In this document: piece by piece, positions 9,389-43,230 of the stretch | Layout of the letters: each line of letters begins with the position of its first letter | How positions within the stretch are numbered: the first letter of the stretch is position 1 | Program-made: the position numbers and the translations under genes | The notes under the pieces: model-generated | The model's input: only the letters and a program-made list of their open reading frames with translations | What the model was told of the DNA's origin: nothing | Database searches by the model: none | Source of the DNA: Candidatus Uhrbacteria bacterium RIFCSPHIGHO2_02_FULL_46_47 | GTDB lineage: Bacteria > Patescibacteriota > Patescibacteriia > GWA2-47-26 | Direction of reading: 5' to 3' | Assembly: GCA_001790815.1 (NCBI GenBank) | Contig: MGDU01000011.1 | Span: forward strand, 1 to 43,230 | Length of the DNA: 43,230 nucleotides

Positions 9389-9426
9389 TAATTATAGCAC
9401 GAACCGTACTTTTCCCCTACTGCTTG

Positions 9427-9460
9427 ATTTCACGATTGCGCAATTGCGCAATCGTGAAAT
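9427..9460. repeat. Palindrome B2 (34 bp)
   Basis: ATTTCACGATTGCGCAATTGCGCAATCGTGAAAT, perfect palindrome; followed by GGCAC. Confidence 0.9.
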
Positions 9461-9609
9461 GGCACTGTGTCATAAGTTAATCTTGTAGTACATCCACCCG
9501 TCTGATATGATGTATCCATAAGGGGTACCGATTACACATTATCCACACTTATTATAGCATGGTTAAGGGCTAATCCCCACCCCTGCGGATAATAGTAGTT
9601 CCGCGGAAA

Positions 9610-9670
9610 TAATTAAAAGTTTTTATCCGCTTCGCGGATATATAATTTGGGGGCTATTTTAAAAATAATT
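9610..9670 (+). repeat. Left 61-bp inverted end of the plus-strand cassette
   Basis: TAATTAAAAG + TTTT[ATCCGC-TTC-GCGGAT]A + TATAATTTGGGGGCTATTTTAAAAATAATT; outer 10 and inner 30 nt match the reverse complement of 13199-13259 exactly. Confidence 0.92.
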
Positions 9671-9680
9671 TGACCGAAAC

Positions 9681-13198: not shown

Positions 13199-13259
13199 AA
13201 TTATTTTTAAAATAGCCCCCAAATTATAGTTTTGCTTCGCAAAACAAAGCTTTTAATTA
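13199..13259 (-). repeat. Right 61-bp inverted end of the cassette
   Basis: Reverse complement: TAATTAAAAG + CTTT[GTTTTGC-GAA-GCAAAAC] + TATAATTTGGGGGCTATTTTAAAAATAATT. Confidence 0.92.
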
Positions 13260-13311
13260 CATCCGATAACTAATTATATCCCCGTCAACCCCCCCAGCTG
13301 TGGATAATCAA

Positions 13312-13328
13312 GAGGCCGTTTCGGCCTC
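13312..13328. terminator. Terminator-like hairpin
   Basis: GAGGCCG-TTT-CGGCCTC followed by ATTTGTGTT. Confidence 0.45.
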
Positions 13329-13380
13329 ATTTGTGTTGTTGACGGTGCAGTCCACAAACGGCTTGTTGTGAGTCCAGGCC

Positions 13381-13414
13381 ATTTCACGATTGCGCAATTG
13401 CGCAATCGTGAAAT
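13381..13414. repeat. Palindrome B3 (34 bp, identical to B2)
   Basis: ATTTCACGATTGCGCAATTGCGCAATCGTGAAAT followed by GGCACAGAGTGG. Confidence 0.9.
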
Positions 13415-13446
13415 GGCACAGAGTGGGGATGATTAGGGTTTTTTAG

Positions 13447-15892: not shown

Positions 15893-16042
15893 TTAATGAC
15901 AGCAACTATGATCTTCCTTGTCTTTCGTATTATGTGAAGTATCTCCATGACCTTCTGGATTGTGATTTGATTGTTTACGCGTAATTTCCTTTACGATCCA
16001 AACCACAAGCCCAATGCCTAAAACCCAATATAATATCATCAT
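15893..16042 (-). CDS. 49-aa single-TM protein with His/Cys-rich tail (not in the ORF track)
   Basis: MMILYWVLGIGLVVWIVKEITRKQSNHNPEGHGDTSHNTKDKEDHSCCH*. Confidence 0.5.
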   Translation of the reverse strand: MMILYWVLGIGLVVWIVKEITRKQSNHNPEGHGDTSHNTKDKEDHSCCH

Positions 16043-16052
16043 ATATGTATTT

Positions 16053-16134
16053 GTCACTGAGAGCTGTCAGCATTGACATCTCTCAGTGACGGAATCCGTC
16101 ACGCAGTGTTGTACTTCGCACGGCACTGAGTGAC
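16053..16134. repeat. 82-bp structured repeat, copy 1
   Basis: GTCACTGAGAGCTGTCAGCATTGACATCTCTCAGTGACGGAATCCGTCACGCAGTGTTG...GGCACTGAGTGAC. Confidence 0.9.
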
Positions 16135-16136
16135 AC

Positions 16137-23423: not shown

Positions 23424-24866
<1,443 letters not shown>

Positions 24867-30487: not shown

Positions 30488-30512
30488 ATTTTATATTTTT
30501 ATTTTCTTATAA

Positions 30513-30668
30513 GTCGTCCTACGGCGATAGGTCGCCGCAAAAATGTTGCGGAAGTCTCGCGGGCACGGTTTCCGCCGTAGACGGAAGAGCAAGACTGAGC
30601 ACAAGTGCCGGTTTTCACGCTGGGAAAACCGAGCACGGTTTTTGCGCGAGCTGTCGTCGGGGGACGAC
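30513..30668. other. Structured intergenic element between atpE and atpF
   Basis: Outer GTCGTCC/GGACGAC, internal CTCGCG/CGCGAG and CGGTTTTC/GAAAACCG pairings. Confidence 0.5.
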
Positions 30669-30681
30669 CGTCCCCCACCTT

Positions 30682-30954
<273 letters not shown>

Positions 30955-37779: not shown

Positions 37780-38562
37780 CTAGACTGCTGTCTCGGTTAT
37801 CGCTGACTCATTTGCCGCTTCGGGCTCCTCTTTCTCTGCCTTCTTTGCGCGCTTCTTGCCAGCGCCGCCAGTCACTTCCATTCCTTTAACTAAATTAAAG
37901 TGATCAAGCAAAATCTGGGTTGCCTGGCTTACGGCCCCCGCAGGATCAATAGTGCCGTCGGTTTCAATGGACAGCATTAATTTATCATAGTTTGTTTTTT
38001 GTCCAACGCGCACATCTTCTACCCGATATCCAACGCTGCGCATTGGAGTAAATACTGAGTCAATTGCAATTACGCCAATCTCTTTTTTCTCTTCATCGCG
38101 CTCCTCAATCGGCACATATCCGCGCCCTTGTCGCACAAAAAGTTCCATGGAAAATTTCCCATCTTTGTTGGTCAGTGTTGCAATATGAAGATCTGGATTT
38201 GAAATCTCAACATCCGCGTTTGGCGCGATATCGGCTGCAGTTACTTCACGCTCGCCGTCAGCTGTAAGTGTAAGCCGTACAGGTTCTGCAGAAAATACTT
38301 TGAGCCGGAGTTGCTTAATATTCAAAATGATCTGTACCACATCTTCTTTTACGTTTGGCACTGCTCCAAATTCATGATCCGTGCCGTGAATTTTTATAGC
38401 CGTAACAGCTGCGCCCGGAAGAGACGATAAAAGTACGCGGCGAAGCGCGTTTCCAACAGTTGTTCCATAACCAGGATGACACGGCTCAACCACAAGAGTT
38501 GCCTTGCGCGGATCCTTATCTTTTATAACTTCTACGTGGGTGGGAAGCAAAAGTTGCTCCAT
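37780..38562 (-). CDS. rpoA: RNA polymerase alpha subunit (alpha-CTD not apparent)
   Basis: KATLVVEPCHPGYGTTVGNALRRVLLSSLPGAAVTAIKI; PMRSVGYRVEDVRVGQKTNYDKLMLSIETDGTIDPAGAVSQATQILLDHF. Confidence 0.97.
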   Translation of the reverse strand: MEQLLLPTHVEVIKDKDPRKATLVVEPCHPGYGTTVGNALRRVLLSSLPGAAVTAIKIHGTDHEFGAVPNVKEDVVQIILNIKQLRLKVFSAEPVRLTLTADGEREVTAADIAPNADVEISNPDLHIATLTNKDGKFSMELFVRQGRGYVPIEERDEEKKEIGVIAIDSVFTPMRSVGYRVEDVRVGQKTNYDKLMLSIETDGTIDPAGAVSQATQILLDHFNLVKGMEVTGGAGKKRAKKAEKEEPEAANESAITETAV

Positions 38563-38581
38563 ATTTGAGTATATTTAAAGA

Positions 38582-39217
38582 TTAGCGCGAATAAAACTCA
38601 ATAATCATTTTGCGATTGAAATTTTGTGGAATGTCATCCTCCTCCGGCAAAGCAATGACCCGTCCTTTAAGTTCTGCTGGATCAAATGTTAACCATTTTT
38701 GAAGATCATGTTTTTCAAGTCGCGGTAAGATTGCTTCTTTAAAAAATTTATTTCCCGTGCTCTTTGGACGCACCTCAATCGTATCGCCAACACGCACCTG
38801 GTAGGAAGGCACGTTTACTTTTTTGCCGTTCACCAAAAAATGACCGTGCGACACATGCTGCCGCGCCTCACCGCGTGAACGCGCAAATCCCAAGCGATAT
38901 ACAACATTATTCAACCGCAATTCTAAAAGTCGCCCTAGAAACAATCCCGTATCACCGCGCTTTGCGGTTGCTTTTGTGACATAATTTCGAAATTGCCGCT
39001 CCGCAAGACCGTATATCAAGCGGGCTTTCTGTTTTTCACGAAGCTGTAATCCAAAGCTGGTAAGCCTACTGCGGCCTCCTGCCGGGCCATGCACGCCCGG
39101 AGGATATGCGCGGCGCACCGCGGCACATTTTGGTCCGGCACAGCGATCGCCTTTAAGCCCAAGGCGCTCGCCCATCCGGCGTTCTTTTTTCTCTTTTGGT
39201 CCAAGTGTAATTCTCAT
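38582..39217 (-). CDS. rpsD: 30S ribosomal protein S4
   Basis: S4 RNA-binding domain: ELRLNNVVYRLGFARSRGEARQHVSHGHFLVNGKKVNVPSYQVRVGDTIEV. Confidence 0.97.
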   Translation of the reverse strand: MRITLGPKEKKERRMGERLGLKGDRCAGPKCAAVRRAYPPGVHGPAGGRSRLTSFGLQLREKQKARLIYGLAERQFRNYVTKATAKRGDTGLFLGRLLELRLNNVVYRLGFARSRGEARQHVSHGHFLVNGKKVNVPSYQVRVGDTIEVRPKSTGNKFFKEAILPRLEKHDLQKWLTFDPAELKGRVIALPEEDDIPQNFNRKMIIEFYSR

Positions 39218-39220
39218 ATC

Positions 39221-39643
39221 TTATACACGTCTCGGCTTTGGAGCGCGAGGTCCGTTATGTGGAATCGGAGTAATATCTTTTATTGCCAAAATTTGAAATC
39301 CTGCGGCATTGAGCGTTCGCACTGCTGACTCGCGTCCACTTCCAAGCCCATTCACAAATACATATACTTCACGCACTCCATACGGTTGGGCTTTTTGCGC
39401 TACCTCGCGCACGATCTGCGCGGCGGCATATGGCGTTGCTTTTTTGGGTCCCGAGAAACCCATGTGCCCAGCTGAGGACCAGGCCAGCACATCGCCATTT
39501 AAATCCGTGATTGTCACAATCGTATTATTATAAGTTGCTTGAATGTAGGCGCGACCACGCGGAACCTGCCGCCGCAATTTTTCTTTTGTGCGGGTCACTT
39601 TCTTCACCGGTGTAATTTTTTCTTGTGTAATTTCTTCCGACAT
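39221..39643 (-). CDS. rpsK: 30S ribosomal protein S11
   Basis: RGRAYIQATYNNTIVTITDLNGDVLAWSSAGHMGFSGPKKATPYAAAQ. Confidence 0.97.
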   Translation of the reverse strand: MSEEITQEKITPVKKVTRTKEKLRRQVPRGRAYIQATYNNTIVTITDLNGDVLAWSSAGHMGFSGPKKATPYAAAQIVREVAQKAQPYGVREVYVFVNGLGSGRESAVRTLNAAGFQILAIKDITPIPHNGPRAPKPRRV

Positions 39644-39721
39644 AATATTACTACTAATCTACGGATGGGCTACTGATACTACAGATCCGTAGAATCCGTA
39701 GCAAATCAGTAGATCCGTAGA

Positions 39722-40108
39722 CTATGTTTTTTCCGCCGCGGATTTGCGTCCGCTTCCCATAGTCTTGCGCACGTTTCCGCGAGTTGTGCGTGAATTCGTC
39801 TTGGTGCGGCCATGAATCGGAAGCCGACGCGTATGGCGCATCCCGCGCCACGTACCAATCTCTTTGAGGCGCTTAATATTGCTTCCGACATCACGGCGCA
39901 ACTCACCCTCCACCCGATACTGTTTTTCAATGGTCTCGCGCAGCACCGCAACTTCTTGTTCGCTTAAATCTTTTGGCTTCTTTCTCAAATCAATTTTTGT
40001 CTGACTCAGAATTTTTTTTGCAAGCGGGACTCCAATGCCATAAATATAGGTCAGCGAGACCTCAAGTTGTTTTTCTGGAAGTACTACTCCTGCGATGCGA
40101 ATTGCCAT
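39722..40108 (-). CDS. rpsM: 30S ribosomal protein S13
   Basis: MAIRIAGVVLPEKQLEVSLTYIYGIGVPLAKKIL...TWRGMRHTRRLPIHGRTKTNSRTTRG. Confidence 0.97.
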   Translation of the reverse strand: MAIRIAGVVLPEKQLEVSLTYIYGIGVPLAKKILSQTKIDLRKKPKDLSEQEVAVLRETIEKQYRVEGELRRDVGSNIKRLKEIGTWRGMRHTRRLPIHGRTKTNSRTTRGNVRKTMGSGRKSAAEKT

Positions 40109-40109
40109 A

Positions 40110-40206
40110 TAAGTGTGATACGAATCTACAAATGTTATGCGAATCTTCGAATATACGAATTCGCATATTTGTTGATTCGCCAGTTCATTCGTTGATTCGT
40201 ATCATA
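40110..40206. repeat. AT-rich inverted repeat between rpsM and rpmJ
   Basis: GTGATACGAATCTACAAATG...ATTCGTTGATTCGTATCAT, same family as 27820-27918. Confidence 0.8.
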
Positions 40207-40207
40207 T

Positions 40208-40321
40208 TTATCCTTGCCGCTGCTTATGGCGCGGATTCTTGCAAATCACAAACAATCGGCGCTGGCGCTTTACCATTTTACAATCTTTACAACGTGGCTT
40301 TACTGATGCTTGAACCTTCAT
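40208..40321 (-). CDS. rpmJ: 50S ribosomal protein L36 (not in the ORF track)
   Basis: [37 protein letters not shown]. Confidence 0.96.
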
Positions 40322-40335
40322 AAGAATGCAAAATC

Positions 40336-40412
40336 ACAGAATAAAAAATCCACAGATCTCACAGAAATTAAATATTTATCTGTGGTATCTGTGTTTCAAT
40401 GTCTGTGGTTTC
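40336..40412. repeat. CCACAGAT...CTGTGG intergenic inverted repeat
   Basis: ATCCACAGATCTCACAGAAATTAAATATTTATCTGTGGTATCTGTGTTTCAATGTCTGTGG, same family as 36383-36452. Confidence 0.7.
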
Positions 40413-40499
40413 GAAGTACTGCCCAAAATCGTGTAATTCAGCCATTTTTGTAGTTGACTCTAGTCTATCAAATCCCCTAAAATGTGTCAACACACCCCA

Positions 40500-40742
40500 C
40501 TAATACCTATAGGTAATGCGCCCTTTTGTTAGATCGTACGGACTAATTTCCAGCTTTACCTTGTCCCCAGGCAATATTCGAATGTGATGAAGCCGCAATT
40601 TCCCTGCCAAATGCGCTAAAATTTCCTGTCCATTGAGTAGTTTCACGCGGAATTTAGCGGCTGGCAAAAGCTCCTCAACAACCCCATCAGTTATGATAAA
40701 GTCTTTGGGAGAAGGTGTTGCGGTTTGTCCTGTTTGTTCCAT
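40500..40742 (-). CDS. infA: Translation initiation factor IF-1
   Basis: [62 protein letters not shown]. Confidence 0.97.
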
Positions 40743-40802
40743 GCAATATAATCTAATTAGAACAGCATACCATACCAGGCGTACCCGTCAAATGACGCAG
40801 TG

Positions 40803-40831
40803 TTGACAAAATACAAGTCTGCGCATATACT
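40803..40831 (+). promoter_or_regulatory. Sigma70-type promoter of the candidate ncRNA
   Basis: TTGACA - 17 nt - TATACT. Confidence 0.75.
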
Positions 40832-40837
40832 ATCTTT

Positions 40838-41177
40838 TGCCGCAAATAGTCTGATCTTTTCGGTACCCTTACCACAGCGTGGCAGTCTGGGCAGTAGGCA
40901 CTCCAAACTATAAGTCCGACCGGTAACAGCTGGACCCTAAAAAGTCCAGGCCTGCGCCACGGCGTGTTGGGCGTGCGCACTTGCGGCGCGCGTCTTAAAG
41001 AAGGCCGCTCAACTAAGGTGTGCGGAAACATCTGAGCACATCAGCCATAAAGTGAGTAAGGTTCTGAGTGTGTTGTGATGACCTGCGCAAAAAAGTTCCT
41101 CCACCAGAGGGCATTCCGTGGGCACACGCACATCGCCTTCTCCGACCATCAGCCTGTGGTCGGGGCAGGCGTTTTTT
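40838..41177 (+). ncRNA. Candidate structured ncRNA (~340 nt), family unknown
   Basis: Good promoter immediately upstream, CTGGAC-loop-GTCCAG and GGTGTGC-loop-GCACATC hairpins, terminal hairpin plus T6, no convincing ORF. Confidence 0.6.
41134..41177 (+). terminator. Intrinsic terminator of the candidate ncRNA
   Basis: CGCCT-tct-CCGACCA-loop-TGGTCGG-ggc-AGGCG-TTTTTT. Confidence 0.8.
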
Positions 41178-41179
41178 AA

Positions 41180-43132
41180 TTATTCCACTACTGCCCGAAT
41201 GCGACGAACGCCGGCGGCGCTTGATTCTTCTTTCACGATTTTGAAATGCCCGATCTCTCCGGAATGTGTTACATGCGGACCGCCGCAAATTTCTTTACTA
41301 AAATTGCCCACCGAGTATACTTTCACGCGCGGCGGATATTTTTGTTTAAAAAACGCCAACGCGCCCTCCGCAATCGCCTCTTCGTATGTTTCTTCCTTTG
41401 AAGTTACCGGCAAATCCTCTTTAATCTTCTCATTAACTAATTCGCTAATCTGCTTAATCTCTAATTCGCTCAACTTCTTCGGATGCGTAAAATCAAACCT
41501 CAAACGCTGCGCCGTAATATCTGATCCTTGCTGGCGCACATGTAAACCAAGCACCCCGCGCAGCGCTTTGTGGAGCATATGTGTTGCGGTATGCAGGCGC
41601 GTTACAATTTTTACTTCTACCTCATTGGCGGCTTTAAGCTCTCCTGTATCCAATATAAGTCCATGTCCGCCAAATTTTCCTGTTATTCCTGCTCGACTTT
41701 TTTCTTGATGTTCTTCAAATGCCTTTTTAAATCCCTCTTCATCTACCTTAAGCCCGCGTTCGTGAGCCATTTCAACCGTAAGCTCAAGCGGAAAACCATA
41801 AGTGTCGTAAAGGTGAAAGGCATTAATCCCGGAGATAACTCCCGGTTGACCCTCACCCTCCCCTCTCCCTCGGGGAGAGGATGGCCGTAGGCCATGTGAG
41901 GGGGCGTTATGCACAATTTTCTCAAATTCCGCCATTCCCCGTTCAATCGTGCGCGCGAATTTTCTCTCTTCATCATCAAACGCGGCCAAAATATTATTGC
42001 GCTCACGCACAAGTTCCGGATATGCCGCGCCATAAAGATCAACTACCTTTCCAATAAGTTGCGCAAGCAAACCATGGGGCAATTTTAAAAGCGAGGCATG
42101 TCGAATGGCGCGGCGAATTACCCGTCTTAAAACATATCCTTGCTCAACATTTGAAGGCCGCACGCCGTCGGCCATAAGAAAAACCGCGCCACGCAAATGG
42201 TCAACAATGATGCGAATAGAGCGCATGCTGATCTCTCCCTCACCCTCCCCTCTCCCCGCAGTACTGCGGGGAGAGGGTGCTCCGACCCCGATCGGAGCAG
42301 GTGAGGGCGACACTATCATTCCAATCAACGGCCTAAACAAATCCGTATCAAAAATTGTGGCAACCTTTTGCGCAATCATTGCCAATCGCTCCAAGCCCAT
42401 ACCCGTATCTACTCCGGGGATCGCAATCTTCTGTAATTTCTTGGTAGTCGCAGGCTTTAGCCTGCGTTCCGTATTGTCCGCCGGCTGAAGACCGGCGACT
42501 ACATCTTTTTGTAATAGTTCCTCACGCGAACCATTGAAGAAAAACTGATTGAATACGATATTCCACACCTCAATATCTTCCCCGGCGGCATTTTTGCAAT
42601 AGATTTCGGTAGTTGGTCCGCATGGCCCGGAAGATCCGGTTGGCCCCCAAAATACATCCTCCATCCCCTGCTCCACTATCTTAATCCTAGGATCAAGTGC
42701 TTTCCAAATGTCCCGCGATTCAGTATCCTTTGGCACGCCAATGGTTTCCTCACCTTCAAATATCGTCACACATGAAATTGGCAATCCCATTTCTTTGGTA
42801 ATGAACTCATGCGCCCAGGCAATCGCTTCTTTTTTAAAATATCCGCCAAAGGAAAAATTGCCCAGCATTTCAAAAAATGTCAGATGCGCCTCATCCCCTA
42901 TCTCATCAATATCCGAGGTGCGAAAGGCCTTCTGCACTGAAGTAGCATTTTTTGAACCAAAATCACGCATTGGATCTGCCAGCCCAACATAGTATTTTTT
43001 AAACTGCTGCATTCCCGCAGTAGTCAAAAGCACGGACGGATCATCCGGCAAAAGCGAAGACGAAGGCACGATAACATGCCCGCGCTCCTTAAAAAATGTT
43101 AGGAAACGTGTGCGAATTTCTGCGCCTGACAT
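41180..43132 (-). CDS. alaS: Alanyl-tRNA synthetase, short form, with three in-frame repeat inserts
   Basis: IRTRFLTFFKERGHVIVPSSSLLPDDPSVLLTTAGMQQFKKYY; ATHMLHKALRGVLG; ICGGPHVTHSGEIGHFKIVKEESSAAGVRRIRAV. Confidence 0.97.
   Translation of the reverse strand: MSGAEIRTRFLTFFKERGHVIVPSSSLLPDDPSVLLTTAGMQQFKKYYVGLADPMRDFGSKNATSVQKAFRTSDIDEIGDEAHLTFFEMLGNFSFGGYFKKEAIAWAHEFITKEMGLPISCVTIFEGEETIGVPKDTESRDIWKALDPRIKIVEQGMEDVFWGPTGSSGPCGPTTEIYCKNAAGEDIEVWNIVFNQFFFNGSREELLQKDVVAGLQPADNTERRLKPATTKKLQKIAIPGVDTGMGLERLAMIAQKVATIFDTDLFRPLIGMIVSPSPAPIGVGAPSPRSTAGRGEGEGEISMRSIRIIVDHLRGAVFLMADGVRPSNVEQGYVLRRVIRRAIRHASLLKLPHGLLAQLIGKVVDLYGAAYPELVRERNNILAAFDDEERKFARTIERGMAEFEKIVHNAPSHGLRPSSPRGRGEGEGQPGVISGINAFHLYDTYGFPLELTVEMAHERGLKVDEEGFKKAFEEHQEKSRAGITGKFGGHGLILDTGELKAANEVEVKIVTRLHTATHMLHKALRGVLGLHVRQQGSDITAQRLRFDFTHPKKLSELEIKQISELVNEKIKEDLPVTSKEETYEEAIAEGALAFFKQKYPPRVKVYSVGNFSKEICGGPHVTHSGEIGHFKIVKEESSAAGVRRIRAVVE
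41849..41903. repeat. GC-rich palindromic repeat in frame within alaS
   Basis: CCCTCACCCTCCCCTCTCCCTCGGGGAGAGGATGGCCGTAGGCCATGTGAGGGGG; encodes SHGLRPSSPRGRGEGEG. Confidence 0.88.
42237..42307. repeat. GC-rich palindromic repeat in frame within alaS
   Basis: CCCTCACCCTCCCCTCTCCCCGCAGTACTGCGGGGAGAGGGTGCTCCGACCCCGATCGGAGCAGGTGAGGG; encodes [25 protein letters not shown]. Confidence 0.88.
42447..42502. repeat. GTAGTCGCAGGC-type inverted repeat in frame within alaS
   Basis: GTAGTCGCAGGCTTTAGCCTGCGTTCCGTATTGTCCGCCGGCTGAAGACCGGCGACTAC; encodes VVAGLQPADNTERRLKPATT. Confidence 0.88.
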
Positions 43133-43158
43133 AATATCTTTGTGCTATCAAATCAACA

Positions 43159-43180
43159 ACCCCGCGGCAAGCCGCGGGGT
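43159..43180. other. Strong hairpin upstream of alaS
   Basis: ACCCCGCGGC-AA-GCCGCGGGGT. Confidence 0.7.
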
Positions 43181-43230
43181 ATGACCAACGGCATGGCCCT
43201 AGGTGAATAAACGAAGCTGAGGCGGGGTAT

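Follow-up and report, generated by a model that had tools for sequence, protein, structure and literature searches.

The window analysed here (43,230 nt, contig 11 of a 1.02 Mb genome that comprises 27 contigs and is rated 100% complete) appears to carry a discrete noncoding transcription unit on its plus strand, between infA and alaS. This reading is well supported by a promoter, a terminator and a lack of open reading frames (ORFs). Promoter and terminator are genuine sequence features, and they bound about 340 nt. By its signals the unit would be a free-standing noncoding RNA (ncRNA) gene; by comparison it is an orphan, matching no known RNA family and found in no second genome among those searched. 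We think it probable that the gene is autonomous, and that its predicted product is a lineage-restricted regulatory RNA acting in trans.

We favor an autonomous gene because the two signals are strong and jointly rare; because they sit in a spacer of 437 nt, far longer than the gap of 60 nt (between ORF borders) at the same place in a relative of the same family, G002, which has no such RNA; because there is no credible coding potential; because the excess of folding energy is found on the plus strand and not on the minus; and because Rfam is negative, with RNase P RNA and tmRNA encoded elsewhere in the genome. Several considerations count against it: no homologue turned up in the genomes searched; the interior of the RNA, once the terminator is set aside, is not significantly structured; and a promoter and terminator pair can drive an inconsequential RNA.

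Signals and coding potential

Table 1. Features in and around the alaS–infA spacer (window coordinates)
Feature	Position	Strand	Remarks
infA (IF-1)	40500..40742	-	flanking gene; Pfam eIF-1a, 5e-24
Weak promoter-like site for infA	40764..40791	-	9/12, TTGACG-16-TATGCT
Sigma-70-type promoter, TTGACA-17-TATACT	40803..40831	+	11/12 consensus
Predicted noncoding RNA, about 340 nt	40838..41177	+	between promoter and terminator; start (~40838) inferred
Predicted multibranch domain	40866..41064	+	fold; borders chosen after folding
Predicted long 3' hairpin, A-rich internal loop (CAAAAAA), CCTC/GAGG cap	41068..41133	+	fold only
Intrinsic terminator	41134..41177	+	5+10 bp stem, one mismatch, 6-nt loop, T6
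alaS	41180..43132	-	flanking gene, convergent with RNA; closest tblastn relative 56% identical, from an Azambacteria MAG

The promoter boxes, TTGACA at 40803-40808 and TATACT at 40826-40831, stand 17 nt apart and form the top-scoring site of the region 38000-43230 (Table 1). Across the whole window this is the only plus-strand site to score at least 11/12; the minus strand has two. Back to back with it stands the promoter-like site for infA, whose score of 9/12 is close to chance expectation. The terminator is in two parts. Its outer stem is CGCCT/AGGCG (41134-41138 paired with 41167-41171) and its inner stem CTCCGACCAT/GTGGTCGGGG (41140-41149 paired with 41156-41165), and it ends in six Ts at 41172-41177, a run present on the plus strand only. 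Its energy of -25.4 kcal/mol is unmatched by any other terminator-like site on either strand of the window. Both signals had been picked out in an earlier note on this DNA, together with the discrete transcript that they would define; the signals have held up, and the transcript is a well-supported prediction.

Signals of this quality seldom arise by chance. When the 437-nt spacer was dinucleotide-shuffled 2000 times and either strand scored, an equally good promoter occurred in 6 shuffles, a terminator at -20 kcal/mol or below in 1, and the two together in none. The locus has one mark of a stand-alone ncRNA gene, in that a promoter and a terminator of its own enclose the noncoding DNA. A housekeeping-type sigma factor would transcribe such a gene, and RNA polymerase would halt at the T6.

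No credible ORF lies between infA and alaS. The longest in the spacer, two minus-strand frames of 92 and 91 aa, lack any Pfam match, and those on the plus strand are short (23 to 58 aa). The mere presence of these short plus-strand frames is what would suggest that the transcript is the mRNA of a small protein, a reading we consider highly improbable: the two ORFs in the 3' half stop at or past the terminator, the 37-aa ORF begins upstream of the predicted RNA start, no Shine-Dalgarno sequence is evident for the 23-aa ORF, and the region resembles ORFs at related loci no more than chance allows. A decayed protein gene in the spacer is likewise unsupported, there being no Pfam match and no similar ORF at related loci.

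Comparison with known RNAs

The free-standing gene resembles the small regulatory RNAs found between bacterial genes: it has a sigma-70-like promoter, an intrinsic terminator and no ORF, and the protein genes on either side of it are encoded on the other strand. It differs in its length of about 340 nt, greater than that of most. A search of Rfam, set beforehand as the test able to refute a new RNA, was negative. Cmscan gave no match at the gathering threshold, and none at E<=10 when 551 bases were searched with permissive filters; the candidate is not recognizable as RNase P RNA, tmRNA, SRP RNA or any other Rfam family.

RNase P RNA (RF00010) is similar in length and presumably shares the 8-mer GGTAACAG, but the candidate does not match the model even at E<=10, and the genome's true copy is on another contig (G000:C22:59734-60318, 147 bits). 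The faint P RNA resemblance remarked on earlier therefore does not amount to identity. tmRNA (RF00023), also similar in length, again gives no match at E<=10; ARAGORN finds neither tRNA-like ends nor a tag ORF in the candidate, and the genome's own tmRNA is elsewhere (C18:3290-3669, 122 bits). Could the candidate be a very diverged relative of P RNA, SRP RNA or 6S RNA, beyond the reach of the Rfam models? Its size is within the range of such RNAs, it has the 8-mer that we take to occur in P RNA, and no 6S RNA was found elsewhere in the genome; but RNase P RNA and tmRNA have their own copies elsewhere in the genome, the permissive Rfam search was empty, and one would expect to meet a housekeeping RNA again in relatives, where none was found. 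We regard this as very unlikely.

SRP RNA (RF00169 and RF01854; helix 8 domain) adds to the case against such divergence. The candidate is unmatched at E<=10, and small SRP RNA went undetected in 39 genomes, this one and 38 relatives, in a search that recovered 13 of 14 controls; the RF01854 search was weak, B. subtilis being missed among the controls. This is consistent with, and extends, the published absence from Parcubacteria, in which neither ffh nor ffs (4.5S RNA) was found (PMC4508563). Since SRP is also reported to be absent from Parcubacteria, the missing SRP RNA is no ground for suspecting the candidate. Nor does the candidate match 6S RNA (RF00013; a long hairpin with a central bubble) at E<=10. 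A search of the three genomes of the family, this one included, turned up no 6S RNA, but detected only 6 of 14 controls.

Homologues and synteny

For comparison there were two genomes of the same family (G001 and G002) and none of the same genus; the window's nearest kin by alaS are MAGs of the Parcubacteria type (Azambacteria, Sungbacteria and others). No DNA homologue was found in 145 genomes or in 382 genomes of the phylum, and G001 and G002, searched at E<=10, gave chance matches only. Inspected by ORF, the matches in rpoC of G002, fusA of G001 and coding DNA of G631 lie inside coding sequence and are attributed to chance. A covariance model built from the one available sequence of the multibranch domain, a first pass that may miss distant homologues, found only itself in 383 genomes of the class, and nothing in 38 selected genomes—family members, G001 and G002 among them, or carriers of the closest alaS. 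These sets overlap, and together they hold more than 600 distinct Patescibacteria genomes. Exact 16- and 20-mer searches of viral contigs returned chance matches or none, and plasmids and phages gave nothing but chance matches of 35 nt. Conservation, which the earlier note had proposed to look for in related spacers, was thus not shown, and function is left without support from conservation or covariation.

The adjacency of alaS and infA recurs in the class, with spacers that differ in content; some hold a minus-strand ORF of ~230 aa. The alaS of the window is only 39.5% identical to its syntenic counterpart in G002, against 72-75% for rpoA, rpsD, rpsK and rpsM, which suggests replacement. It is likely that alaS was replaced in one of the two lineages, the window's or that of G002, and the spacer possibly arrived together with it.

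These comparisons bear on the thought that the two signals are real but enclose a functionless RNA, a product of recent or decaying intergenic DNA that came in, perhaps, with alaS. In favor of it, no homologue was found in the genomes searched, the interior folds like shuffled sequence, the spacer of G002 is short, and the divergence of alaS from that of G002 makes a replacement on the alaS side of the junction possible. Against it, a single spacer holds a pair of strong signals that agree in orientation, and the fold excess is confined to the plus strand; we hold this reading to be unlikely.

Folding of the predicted RNA

The full transcript folds better than its shuffles on the plus strand (z -2.3 to -2.6; minus strand, -0.5). 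Without the terminator it folds no better than they do (z -0.5), so that the earlier description of the region as stem-rich was overstated. What little support there is for 'structured' comes from the multibranch domain, for which two plus-strand runs gave z of -2.9 and -2.35, against -0.8 on the minus strand; its borders were taken from the fold, and these values are therefore a lead only. The domain is closed by a long-range, interrupted helix of 14 bp (CCTTAC.CAC...GTGGC / GCCAT...GTG.GTAAGG, 40867-40883 with 41044-41061), with pair probabilities of 0.98-1.00. The region of the 3' hairpin is not significant (z -0.5). Elsewhere in the window, the intergenic gaps at 9389-9680, 13199-13446, 15949-16136, 30488-30691 and 40109-40499, probably palindromic repeats, fold far better than their shuffles on both strands (z -3 to -7), and of 200 control tiles 13 score -2.9 or below; folding energy, therefore, cannot carry the claim of an ncRNA.

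We would entertain only tentatively the stronger proposal that the RNA is a new, lineage-restricted, large structured RNA, built on the multibranch core and dedicated to some function in a lineage of Parcubacteria that appears to be without SRP RNA and 6S. It shares with the large orphan structured RNAs, at least as these are outlined in PMC2864571, great length, a function that is not known and a predicted multibranch fold, but those rest on comparison of many genomes whereas this one is known from a single genome.

Possible roles

The RNA lies wholly within the spacer and ends 3 nt before the stop codon of alaS. The earlier description 'antisense to all neighbours' needs correcting: alaS and infA do both lie on the minus strand, but the RNA overlaps neither gene. 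Meeting alaS tail-to-tail and diverging from infA, it would be antisense only to a transcript that might read through from the one to the other. Of the roles we can picture, regulation in trans is the most likely; a cis-acting antisense RNA or transcriptional divider at this junction is less likely and, taken by itself, rather doubtful. Such an RNA would uncouple infA from alaS, either by pairing full-length with the read-through mRNA or because its transcription opposes read-through. The arrangement suits it: the RNA converges on alaS and diverges from infA, no strong minus-strand terminator separates the two, and their adjacency is recurrent. But the RNA touches neither coding sequence and stays clear of the region where infA starts, relatives have the two genes adjacent with no such RNA between them, and an elaborate terminator fits a free-standing RNA equally well. 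Unless we are mistaken in preferring a regulator that acts in trans, the RNA would do so through its single-stranded loops, within its own lineage.

The noncoding RNAs of Patescibacteria have been charted only sparsely. Known from one genome, and so giving no conservation, the candidate RNA alone answers no open question; but a clean unit of promoter, RNA and terminator, in a genome of 1.02 Mb with few known RNAs, makes a good candidate for metatranscriptome checks.

Other sequence elements

Upstream of infA, the motif TTTTATTTT occurs in 8 of 30 loci (the window's own and 29 from relatives), where Markov-sampled copies lead one to expect 1.4. The window lacks it; the eight loci are L016, L017, L024, L026, L027, L029, L030 and L038, none of them with an Rfam match. 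In several it directly follows a stem such as AAATTCTgGGC...GCCaAGAATTT, and it is possible that this leader element is an attenuator or leader RNA of IF-1.

The window itself has seven copies of CCCTCACCCTCCCCTCTCCC on the plus strand, where none is expected (2005, 5670, 6699, 21624, 24679, 41850 and 42237), as part of palindromic repeats. Three lie within open frames, two in alaS and one in the ORF at 23424-24860, where the in-frame repeats add stretches of protein (26 letters, for example), in a manner that we take to resemble the Rickettsia palindromic elements.
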